A stretch of 37,577 bases of DNA from an uncultured Alphaproteobacteria bacterium (GTDB lineage Bacteria > Pseudomonadota > Alphaproteobacteria > Rs-D84). The notes under the pieces are model-generated. The model saw only the letters and a list, made by a program, of their open reading frames with translations. It was not told the DNA's origin and did no database searches. This document shows, piece after piece, positions 9,198-37,494 of this stretch. Position 1 is the stretch's first letter. Every line of letters begins with the position of its first letter. Location: contig CALXOX010000003.1 of the NCBI GenBank assembly GCA_944390125.1, forward strand, positions 85,280 through 122,856, read 5' to 3'. A program made the translations under genes and the position numbers.

Positions 9198-9932
9198 GTG
9201 GGAAGGAATAATAGTTCTGTATGCTTAAAACGTTTTTATTTGCTTATTGCGGCCTTTATAGTGACGAAAATTGGGCCGGCCGCTGCAGCTGCGCCGGATA
9301 TTGATAGAATTCTAGACAATTGGTTTGATAGTCGGCGTATTTGCGGTAAAGGATTACATGCTTCTGATGACGAAAATTGTTTCGTATGTATTCCAAAGTT
9401 TATGAATGAGACTGCTTATCCAGATGAGCTGGACAGGATGTATGAATCTGGTGAGTTGGACGAGTGCGTTGATACTCCAACGTGTAATATTGACCCTTCA
9501 GGAATTCTTGCATATGGTGTGACATCAATAGGTGGAAGAACTAAGTCAGGAGAAGGTTGTCCTGCATATGAGTGTACAGCGGACGGTTGGAAGGAAATTG
9601 GCGGTAGTGTTACTTGTAAAGATATTCATGCATGGAACGGAACGTATATAAACTGTTGCAATCCGCGCCAAGACGAGTCTGATAGATGGTTGTGTGATAG
9701 TTATGATGAGGCTTATTGCGATAGTGGATATTATGGAACTTGGTCAGGTCATAATTCTGACTGCACAGCTTGTCCTTTGGGGCCTTTGGATGCAAATGGA
9801 AATCGTGTTGTAATTTCGAGTTCAAAGGTAAATGGCAACTCTGCAACAGATTGTTATATCGGTGGTTCTTATACGTTTGCTGACGCTATGGGAAAGTTTA
9901 TTTATACAAAAGCTTGTTATTGGAAGAAATGA
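9198..9932 (+). CDS. Secreted Cys-rich protein with C-terminal GYYG module
   Basis: A 244-residue exported protein of unknown function. A hydrophobic segment (about residues 13-31, ending PAAAAA) is a probable Sec signal peptide. The mature part has about 20 cysteines, suggesting disulfide bonds in the periplasm or on the surface. Its C-terminus holds a module GYYG (177-180), CTACP (189-193), NSATDC (214-219), F-x-DA-x-G-x-F (227-234) and a last Cys at 240. The same module ends the protein at 29667-30332. The pattern loosely recalls eukaryotic GCC2/GCC3 or TNFR-like Cys repeats, but that is only a resemblance. It starts at GTG with GAGGGA seven bases upstream, and is four bases ahead of the LicD gene, so it heads that operon. 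Confidence 0.8.
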   Translation: MGRNNSSVCLKRFYLLIAAFIVTKIGPAAAAAPDIDRILDNWFDSRRICGKGLHASDDENCFVCIPKFMNETAYPDELDRMYESGELDECVDTPTCNIDPSGILAYGVTSIGGRTKSGEGCPAYECTADGWKEIGGSVTCKDIHAWNGTYINCCNPRQDESDRWLCDSYDEAYCDSGYYGTWSGHNSDCTACPLGPLDANGNRVVISSSKVNGNSATDCYIGGSYTFADAMGKFIYTKACYWKK

Positions 9933-29448: not shown

Positions 29449-29457
29449 TGATATAAT
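29449..29457 (+). promoter_or_regulatory. Extended -10 promoter of the structured leader (copy 1)
   Basis: TGA-TATAAT, with TATAAT at 29452-29457. Transcription would begin around 29460-29464 at the CCGT that also begins copy 2. The -35 is poor. Confidence 0.6.
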
Positions 29458-29459
29458 AA

Positions 29460-29637
29460 CCGTGGCTCGATGAGAAAAAGTGGGCCGGGGCGTCGAAACC
29501 CTTATCTAATGTGTTCCTGTTTAAGGAACAGACTAACACTCCAATCTAGGTTGGAGGGCGGTGAATATGTTGAATAAACCCGCTATTTCATTAGATGTAG
29601 TTTCGAACCTCCAACCACCTAATTTTGGTGGTTTTTT
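29460..29637 (+). ncRNA. Structured attenuator-like leader RNA, copy 1
   Basis: In order: hairpin GGCTC/GGGCC (29464-29468, 29482-29486); GGCGTC..ACCC; ATCTAATG (29504-29511); hairpin TGTTCCT/AGGAACA (29512-29518, 29524-29530); hairpin CTCCAA/TTGGAG (29539-29544, 29551-29556); GAATAT-N3-GAATAA (29563-29577); a short hairpin CTAT/GTAG (29583-29586, 29597-29600) with loop CATTAGAT (29589-29596) that pairs with 29504-29511. The terminator AACCACC/GGTGGTT (29613-29619, 29627-29633) plus T-run ends it. GGTTGGAGG (29549-29557) can also pair with CCTCCAACC (29608-29616), overlapping the terminator arm. The order matches copy 2. No known riboswitch family was recognised. Confidence 0.75.
29613..29637 (+). 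terminator. Attenuator terminator upstream of the Cys-rich gene
   Basis: AACCACC (29613-29619), a seven-base loop, GGTGGTT (29627-29633), T-run to 29637. It ends 30 bases before the ATG with the ribosome binding site after it, so it would stop transcription before the gene unless read through. Confidence 0.85.
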
Positions 29638-29666
29638 CATTCACGATGAAAAAAGGAGGCCAAGGA

Positions 29667-30332
29667 ATGAAAAAACTATTTTACGTTGTTTTTGGAATAA
29701 ACCTGTTTTTTATCGGTCAGTCATTTGCTGATTTTTGCTTTACCATTAATAATTACTGTTATTGGTGTAATACGCAGGGGCCATCACCTGGTGCTTATTG
29801 CGATCGTGGTTATGCTGGGTGCACAAACACAGATCAAATACTTAAAAGCAATGGCTCAATCATGGAAGACCGGTTTGGAAGAACTTGGAAGTGTACCTAT
29901 AGTGGTTGGTGCTATTCCAGTTGTAGTTGGGTTACACCAACTTACAGGTATGTTGATATTGGTGGAGGATATGCACAAATAGAAGCTAATAATACAGGGT
30001 GTTTTTGTACCGAGTGGGGACGTGCATATATCAATGGTAATTCATATGTGTGCTCAGATGGATATTATGGAACGCCAAATACATCTGGAACATCTGGATG
30101 TACAATATGTCCAAAATATACAAATGCCGCAGGTCAGAGTTTTAATGGAGACAGCGAAGCGGGTAACAATAATAGTATAACTGATTGCTGGATGAACGGC
30201 AATAATGGTCCATTTAAAGACGCAACAGGTACGTTTGCAATAATAACAGATAAGTGTATGTACTCAAATTTTGTTGTAATCCCTGGTGGAAGTGTGATCC
30301 CTGGTGGAACAATTGTTACTCCTGCAAATTAA
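29667..30332 (+). CDS. Secreted Cys-rich protein with C-terminal GYYG module
   Basis: A 221-residue exported protein of unknown function. The signal peptide spans about residues 1-21 (VFGINLFFIGQSFA). The mature part has about 18 cysteines, with YCYWCNTQG and CTYSGWCYSSCSW. The C-terminal module matches the protein at 9198: GYYG (132-135), CTICP (145-149), NSITDC (169-174), F-x-DA-x-G-x-F (183-190) and a last Cys (197). A short tandem repeat, VIPGGS-VIPGGT, follows. ATG 29667 has AGGAGG at 29654-29659; an in-frame TTG at 29625 falls inside the terminator and is not the start. The next gene is convergent. Confidence 0.82.
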   Translation: MKKLFYVVFGINLFFIGQSFADFCFTINNYCYWCNTQGPSPGAYCDRGYAGCTNTDQILKSNGSIMEDRFGRTWKCTYSGWCYSSCSWVTPTYRYVDIGGGYAQIEANNTGCFCTEWGRAYINGNSYVCSDGYYGTPNTSGTSGCTICPKYTNAAGQSFNGDSEAGNNNSITDCWMNGNNGPFKDATGTFAIITDKCMYSNFVVIPGGSVIPGGTIVTPAN

Positions 30333-36834: not shown

Positions 36835-37260
36835 TTAGTCAGATAGTCCACTAAACAGCCCCGACCGGAAAGCGGCGTAGGACCGAGCGTTGGCCCCACA
36901 GCTGCGCGCGCAACGGCTGCAATCGCCGGCGGACGAGAACGAGTGGCTGAACACCCACGACGAAACCGCGGGCGAAACCATTTTGCACCAGCAATGTTTG
37001 TTATTGTCACTGGTTGAACTGATCGTGACAGTTTCGGATGTTGTACCCATTGAACCACCCTCTTGAGAGCCACAAAATGCAACACCCTGAATTTCTATAT
37101 CTTCACCGCTACAGAGTGCTGACCAATTTGACTGACCGGTCGAGCCATAAGGCCTTACGCACGTTGTTGATGATGACAGTCTTACGCATTTTGTGACCGC
37201 ATACGCTGGTGGGATTGATGCCGCACAAATTATGCCGGCGATGATTAAATGTTTTTTCAT
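36835..37260 (-). CDS. Secreted Cys-rich protein downstream of structured leader
   Basis: A 141-residue exported protein of unknown function. The signal peptide ends about residue 21 (CAASIPPAYA). The mature part has CVRPYGSTGQSNW, a segment with HCWCKMVSPAVSSWVF, and DCSRCARSCGANARSYAAFRSGLF. It does not share the GYYG module of the 9198 and 29667 proteins. ATG 37260 has AGGGGG upstream; an in-frame start at 37299 falls inside the terminator. It is followed by the 92-residue gene. Its 5' region matches the leader of the 29667 gene although the proteins are not obviously related. Confidence 0.75.
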   Translation of the reverse strand: MKKHLIIAGIICAASIPPAYAVTKCVRLSSSTTCVRPYGSTGQSNWSALCSGEDIEIQGVAFCGSQEGGSMGTTSETVTISSTSDNNKHCWCKMVSPAVSSWVFSHSFSSAGDCSRCARSCGANARSYAAFRSGLFSGLSD

Positions 37261-37285: not shown

Positions 37286-37315
37286 GAAAAAACCACCAAA
37301 ATATTTCAGGTGGTT
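37286..37315 (-). terminator. Attenuator terminator upstream of the Cys-rich operon
   Basis: On the minus strand AACCACC (37309-37315), an 11-base loop, GGTGGTT (37291-37297), then T-run. It ends just before the ribosome binding site and ATG 37260. Confidence 0.85.
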
Positions 37316-37459
37316 GGAGGTTCATAGCTATATCAGGTATAGTGTGCTTATTCTATATATTCGCAACCCTCCAACCCAAAACAGTTGGAGCTTTTTTACA
37401 TCTTGATTGATGCCTGAATTCGGGCTATGACACCCCGTCAATGGAACACCCACTGACGG
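37286..37459 (-). ncRNA. Structured attenuator-like leader RNA, copy 2
   Basis: Read on the minus strand: hairpin CCGTCA/TGACGG (37454-37459, 37435-37440); GGTGTC..GCCC; TCAGG (37413-37417); hairpin CATC/GATG (37409-37412, 37399-37402); hairpin CTCCAAC/GTTGGAG (37384-37390, 37369-37375); GAATAT-N3-GAATAA (37348-37362); hairpin CTATA/TATAG (37338-37342, 37328-37332) with loop CCTGA (37333-37337) pairing with TCAGG; terminator. GGTTGGAGG (37368-37376) can also pair with CCTCCAACC (37312-37320). The order matches copy 1 while most stems differ in sequence. Confidence 0.75.
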
Positions 37460-37464
37460 TAATT

Positions 37465-37494
37465 ATTATAATCACAACAAAATTTCATTTGCAA
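37465..37494 (-). promoter_or_regulatory. Sigma-70 promoter of structured leader copy 2
   Basis: On the minus strand TTGCAA (37489-37494), 18 bases, TATAAT (37465-37470). Transcription would start at or near the CCGT of the leader. Confidence 0.7.

Follow-up and report, generated by a model that had tools for sequence, protein, structure and literature searches.

The window analysed here, a 37,577-nucleotide (nt) stretch of DNA from an uncultured alphaproteobacterium, carries at 29460-29637 of the forward strand a leader that precedes a gene for a secreted-looking, cysteine-rich protein. This leader is probably a C4-type antisense RNA module, consisting of a c4-a1b1-like leader part and a C4-like core, that functions as a cis-acting transcription attenuator. 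An earlier note on this DNA had delimited the span and proposed an attenuator-like leader with a mutually exclusive terminator and antiterminator, an arrangement that proved both conserved and covarying. The leader RNA is real: its pairings exist, covary and recur. Judged from its sequence, it is a divergent relative of sRNA-Xcc1 (RF02221), its nearest family in Rfam. Rather than a novel type of riboswitch, it is an unusually amplified variant of the C4 antisense system whose output is that of an attenuator.

The pairings that the earlier note had reported are all present in the window. They comprise the hairpin of CTCCAA (29539-29544) with TTGGAG (29551-29556); the antiterminator of GGTTGGAGG with CCTCCAACC, in which nine of nine positions pair, and which is stem P1 of the core; the terminator of AACCACC (29613-29619) with GGTGGTT (29627-29633), followed by a run of T; and the loop pairing of ATCTAATG with CATTAGAT. 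The last of these had been described as pseudoknot-like; the pairing exists, but it is the contact of C4 between the upstream site b1 and the core strand b', and its partner, a second long-range pairing between a1 (TCGAAAC) and a' (GTTTCGA), had been overlooked. The 181-nt leader folds 4.65 standard deviations better than dinucleotide shuffles (z -4.65).

The identity of the RNA is carried by these two contacts. The a1 site, in the loop of hairpin H1, is complementary to the a' strand between stem P3 and P1', the 3' strand of P1, and both strands vary while staying complementary. Across 99 loci, which include near-duplicates and are therefore not fully independent, the joint a1b1/a'b' score of each leader with its own core averaged 14.6, with 95% scoring at least 12, compared with 12% of mismatched leader and core combinations given the same search freedom. 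The 16 copies in the genome of the window gave a diagonal complementarity sum of 236, against 197 for the best of 100,000 permutations; the own leader was strictly the best partner for 12 of the 16 cores, and the other leaders rarely matched (12 of 240 combinations at 12 or more). Low scorers mostly retain the pairing through G-U pairs, as judged by eye. As in C4 of phage P1, b' occupies the loop of P3 and a' the stretch that separates P3 from P1, with a1 and b1 upstream on the same predicted transcript and a1 in a hairpin loop. It is the covarying and largely private nature of a1:a' and b1:b' that identifies the RNA as having C4-type anatomy, and, as the pairs are largely private, the copies should be addressed individually.

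The elements of the attenuator are also conserved. Firstly, in an alignment of 45 distinct homologous cores, which was fitted to a covariance model and is hence biased towards it, 99.4% of cells held standard pairs, and 13 of 20 core pairs changed on both sides; these pairing values were matched by 0 of 500 shuffles, and slid structures collapsed. Secondly, anti-P1 runs of at least six bases are found in 39 of 41 copies of the window's subtype, compared with 4.6% of shuffles, and covary with P1, such that copies with CAGGAG carry the compensatory CTCCTGA. Thirdly, a terminator stands directly after P1' in 71 of 79 copies from the same order and in 40 of 41 of the subtype; none of the 20 copies from other Pseudomonadota has one there. 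Fourthly, the antiterminator was said to take four bases of a terminator arm, and exactly four bases are common to the terminator and P1 in 60 of the 71 terminator-bearing copies of the order, and in 35 of the subtype. The leader thereby has the mutually exclusive antiterminator and intrinsic terminator of an attenuator, in conserved form. The most conserved unpaired stretch of the subtype is the P2 loop (GAATATATTGAATAA). The earlier note had been prepared to abandon its proposal if covarying homologues were missing; such copies are present in related genomes.

That note had also spoken of two copies, at 29549-29637 on the forward strand and 37287-37376 on the reverse; both exist (here L100 and L069, respectively), but the genome holds at least 14 clear copies in all. 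A DNA search of this genome (897 kb, eight contigs) returned eight copies, and the covariance model R1, built from the window's subtype, returned 14 at E below 1e-3, plus two weaker matches that share the anatomy. R1 matched (E up to 1e-4) 53 of 59 genomes of the genus, with a maximum of 52 copies per genome, but among 190 genomes sampled across the class it matched only six outside the genus. In all likelihood the genus is Candidatus Enterousia, a genome-reduced lineage of gut bacteria in GTDB order Rs-D84 that has been proposed to be an obligate symbiont or parasite (PMC12306168). Two complete leaders, L104 and L099 (G000:C1:384452-384787), stand in tandem 243 bp apart, each with a promoter-like box, and the second precedes a short helix-turn-helix (HTH)-like gene rather than one for a secreted protein.

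The impression that the leader resembles no known RNA is not borne out. Among Rfam families, RF02221 alone matches it meaningfully (34 bits, E 2e-4), aligning over full-length P1-P2-P3 (model positions 1-87) and placing it in the sRNA-Xcc1/C4 antisense group; another copy in the same genome reached 50.7 bits. Matches to RF02221 occur in 74 of 114 genomes of the order, three of them above the gathering cut-off, and in 51 of 299 genomes of the phylum, 35 of them above it. From the layout of its loci, sRNA-Xcc1 is itself C4-type. At the top phylum loci, a collinear upstream a1/b1 scores at least 12 in 19 of 20, and 15 of the 20 have a2/b2 target sites downstream, close to the start codon (control 5-16%); the downstream genes include those for BRO-N, KilA-N, P22_AR_N (P22 antirepressor), Phage_pRha (Rha) and SymE. 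Several RF02221 loci also have in common with phage P1, by eye, an ACCGC...GCGGTATTTTTGTG element that separates b1 from the core. In viral contigs, at least 120 stretches contain the exact P2 motif, with RF02221 above the cut-off in eight of eight tested; a 17-base P2-loop search of viral contigs gave 16 stretches, only four of which were R1 matches, and L323, L326 and L327 are putative viral copies. Relative to these phage-type loci, the terminator is new in the Enterousia order, and a2/b2 sites are hardly above control, with 13 of 71 terminator-bearing copies of the order having them compared with a background of 11%, and a score of 0 at the downstream gene start for L100.

Within the same order, L038 (G361:C7) matches RF02221 above the cut-off, lacks a terminator, precedes a phage Rha gene and has an a2/b2-like score of 14; it may represent the phage-type, ancestral form. 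At L024, a sub-threshold match to c4-2 (RF02944; 2890-2958, reverse strand) is separated by approximately 1.3 kb from a copy of sRNA-Xcc1 that has a P22-type antirepressor, and two C4-type RNAs may share this one element. Three other identities were considered and rejected. The link of sRNA-Xcc1 to integrons suggested an attC site, but the order GTTGGAG...CTCCAAC is, by eye, the reverse of that in attC; neither ARAGORN nor Rfam matched a tRNA- or tmRNA-like end; and a T-box-like interpretation of the variable H1-loop triplet was dropped, as the triplet is complementary to a'.

In the proposed mechanism, free a1 and b1 would pair in cis with a' and b' as these emerge, leaving the 5' strand of P1 to anti-P1 and its 3' strand to the terminator, such that the default would be OFF. 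Were a1 and b1 occupied before the core emerges, P1 would form first and take four bases of the terminator stem, permitting read-through (ON). The outcome would be decided kinetically, by the occupant of a1/b1 during emergence of the core; by analogy with C4, the likeliest would be the matching core RNA, processed and working in trans, or otherwise a protein or ribosome. In folding calculations that ignored pseudoknots, the terminator-containing fold beat the P1 fold in 38 of 38 copies, by a mean of 14.4 kcal/mol, and included a1:a' and b1:b' in 34 of 38. For the pre-terminator transcript, the probability of P1 was 0.00 with a1/b1 free, and a median of 0.95 with the region blocked.

The omission of pseudoknots is one of several points that weigh against this interpretation. 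The complete terminator mostly wins even with a1/b1 blocked (median P1 probability 0.04), and therefore a kinetic switch must be assumed. The window copy falls below the RF02221 gathering cut-off (34 compared with 53 bits). The C4 family itself, RF01695, was found in 0 of 40 genomes of the taxonomic family in a search that lacked a positive control; even at E values as high as 10 it did not match the leader of the window, and its model recovers phage P1 C4 with 68.8 bits. Finally, L075 (G350:C3:48931-49017) has lost complementarity to its own a1/b1. The a'/b' of the L075 core match those of the window's second copy, which would suit an exchange of cores between paralogues.

Of the 15 genes with a usable frame behind the leaders in the genome of the window, 14 appear to be secreted by a crude heuristic, and 14 are cysteine-rich. 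The same heuristic classes as secreted 59 of 72 downstream genes in the order, compared with 10 of 34 window genes and one of 18 downstream genes in other Pseudomonadota; other downstream genes in the order specify HTH regulators, a Stealth protein, a glycosyltransferase and an outer-membrane barrel. The median distance between the first base of P1' and the start codon is 59.5 nt (quartiles 56 and 62), which places the codon just past the terminator and leaves little room for another promoter. As the gene stands directly behind the terminator, it is most simply transcribed through it. Each locus might instead mainly produce a C4/sRNA-Xcc1-like small RNA (sRNA) that silences other mRNAs in trans, after a cut by RNase P and with its end set by the terminator, and read-through into the downstream gene would be incidental. 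C4 and sRNA-Xcc1 are indeed known as small RNAs (PMC5320573, PMC2996969), the first two bases of P1 are GG in 65 of the order's 79 copies (often with ACC or GCC after P1', a pattern that appears RNase-P-compatible), and the tandem leaders would also suit such a role. Nevertheless, this is rather doubtful: matching a1/b1 sites are retained upstream in cis, the other leaders of the genome seldom match (the 12 of 240 above), and the leader maintains a consistent distance of approximately 60 nt from a start codon that, in 14 of 15 cases, belongs to a secreted-protein gene.

A ribosome could alternatively set the switch by its position on a leader peptide translated over a1/b1, as in amino-acid operon attenuation. 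It would then free the core for P1, and the window copy has an ATG at 29470. However, the enrichment of ATG frames over a1/b1 is weak (18 of 35 copies, compared with 29% of shuffles), approximately half of the copies lack one, and no conserved start or peptide was seen in them, making this explanation improbable. Equally hard to credit is a ligand-binding riboswitch, or a protein-binding leader sensing through the P2 loop, even though this loop is common to a putative viral copy and absent from P1 C4, for no riboswitch family matches the leader, the varying loops are base-pairing loops, and the genes concerned, among them those for antirepressors, SymE, secreted proteins and glycosyltransferases, fit no single metabolite. 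Hence a metabolite riboswitch is unlikely, and the suggestion in the earlier note of ligand or metabolic-signal sensing finds no support in downstream genes that show no common metabolite logic. The P2 loop may bind a protein, which would be compatible with the C4-type attenuator, and the two could act together.

Table 1. Features of the leader at 29460-29637 and of the second leader in the window
Feature	Position	Strand	Basis
Extended -10 box TGA-TATAAT, predicted leader promoter	29449..29457	+	Sequence
P0, first hairpin of c4-a1b1-like part	29464..29486	+	Minimum free energy fold, by-eye comparison of copies, phage P1 RF03163 layout
H1 hairpin GGG-CGTCGAAA-CCC, carrying a1	29488..29501	+	Sequence
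a1, TCGAAAC, in H1 loop	29493-29499	+	Complementary to a' in nearly all copies
b1, ATCTAATG	29504..29511	+	Complement of b' (29589-29596), covarying in almost every copy
Variable spacer hairpin	29512..29530	+	Fold; differs among copies
Anti-P1 strand CTCCAAT	29539..29545	+	Conserved run; compensatory change in CAGGAG copies
C4/sRNA-Xcc1-like core	29549..29616	+	Covariation; RF02221 alignment over 1-87; R1 match 97.5 bits
P1 of core	29549-29557 with 29608-29616	+	Covariation
P2 of core, conserved loop	29558-29561 with 29580-29583	+	Covariation
P3 of core, b' 29589-29596 inside	29583-29586 with 29597-29600	+	Covariation
a', GTTTCGA, between P3 and P1'	29600-29606	+	Complementary to a1
Predicted RNase P cut	before G29549	+	Analogy with C4 (PMC5320573)
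Intrinsic terminator, 29613-29616 common with P1	29613..29637	+	Sequence; conserved among copies
Ribosome-binding site AAGGAGG	29653..29659	+	Sequence
Gene, 221-amino-acid secreted-looking Cys-rich protein (6.8% Cys), no Pfam match	29667..30332	+	Signal peptide by crude heuristic
Second complete copy: core and terminator 37287-37376, leader upstream, own a1/b1	37287..37465	-	
Gene behind second copy, 141-amino-acid secreted-looking Cys-rich protein (7.1% Cys)	36835..37260	-	

The predicted promoter (Table 1) puts the transcription start at approximately the first base of the feature (29460). A TATAAT-like box lies 30-50 nt upstream of a1 in 29 of 35 copies, compared with 43% of shuffles, and a strict sigma-70 scan did not find a full promoter. 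P0 has diverged in the window copy, with a GUGUU or GGGA loop in other copies (by eye). The terminator T-run and adjoining CATTC (29631-29642) are perfectly complementary over 12 bases to GAATGAAAAAAC (29665-29676) at the start codon, and hence the read-through RNA could mask its own start codon; such runs of at least nine bases occur in nine of 78 copies and in none of the shuffles. A third gene for a secreted-looking, cysteine-rich protein in the window (9198-9932, 7.0% Cys) has no R1 leader.

On the reading as a C4-type attenuator, an apparent phage immunity RNA has been taken over and multiplied in a genome-reduced lineage, where it has a new output, transcription attenuation. It is tentatively possible that in Enterousia dozens of phage-type C4 attenuators, individually addressable and each switched by its own matching small RNA, govern a large share of secreted-protein expression; if so, a phage immunity device became a chromosome-wide system choosing which secreted proteins are made. 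The a1/b1 sites, merely 'putative' targets in phage P1, are retained here while a2/b2 are not detectable, making their role directly testable. sRNA-Xcc1 has so far been discussed as a virulence-linked or vesicle-borne sRNA, and this unexplained family can now be given a concrete anatomy of the C4 type, with the adjoining gene, for example symE, predicted as its first target.

The leaders can be compared with several known systems. With sRNA-Xcc1 they share the P1-P2-P3 core, a' beside P1, b' in P3 and upstream a1/b1, and the GAATATATTGAATAAGC P2 loop of a putative viral copy is identical to that of the Enterousia copies; in contrast, the 20 sRNA-Xcc1 phylum loci have no terminator behind P1, have a2/b2 near the start codon in 15 cases, and precede phage antirepressor and SymE genes. 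The immI region of phage P1, with C4 (RF01695) and c4-a1b1 (RF03163), has the same order a1-b1-C4 and the same placement of a' and b'; its record runs from the putative a1 and b1 sites through the C4 RNA to a2/b2 at the icd-ant start. The two hairpins of c4-a1b1, the second with a1 in its loop, correspond to P0 and H1. However, phage P1 C4 has a longer P1 and a short tetraloop stem as P2, acts on a2/b2 at the icd start, of which no counterparts are detectable here, and has no intrinsic terminator visible behind it. RNase P is described as cleaving C4 where P1 begins, at a GG (PMC5320573). The C4-like sRNAs of Acinetobacter baumannii resemble the Enterousia leaders in their many chromosomal copies, variable a' loop and GG processing site, but, in the passages of PMC5320573 consulted, are processed from longer transcripts, have no assigned targets, and are not described as fused to terminators or secreted-protein genes. 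Finally, the alternative 1:2, 2:3 and 3:4 pairings with a terminator are those of amino-acid operon attenuators, with the difference that the place of a conserved leader peptide is taken here by variable, covarying loop-loop pairs.
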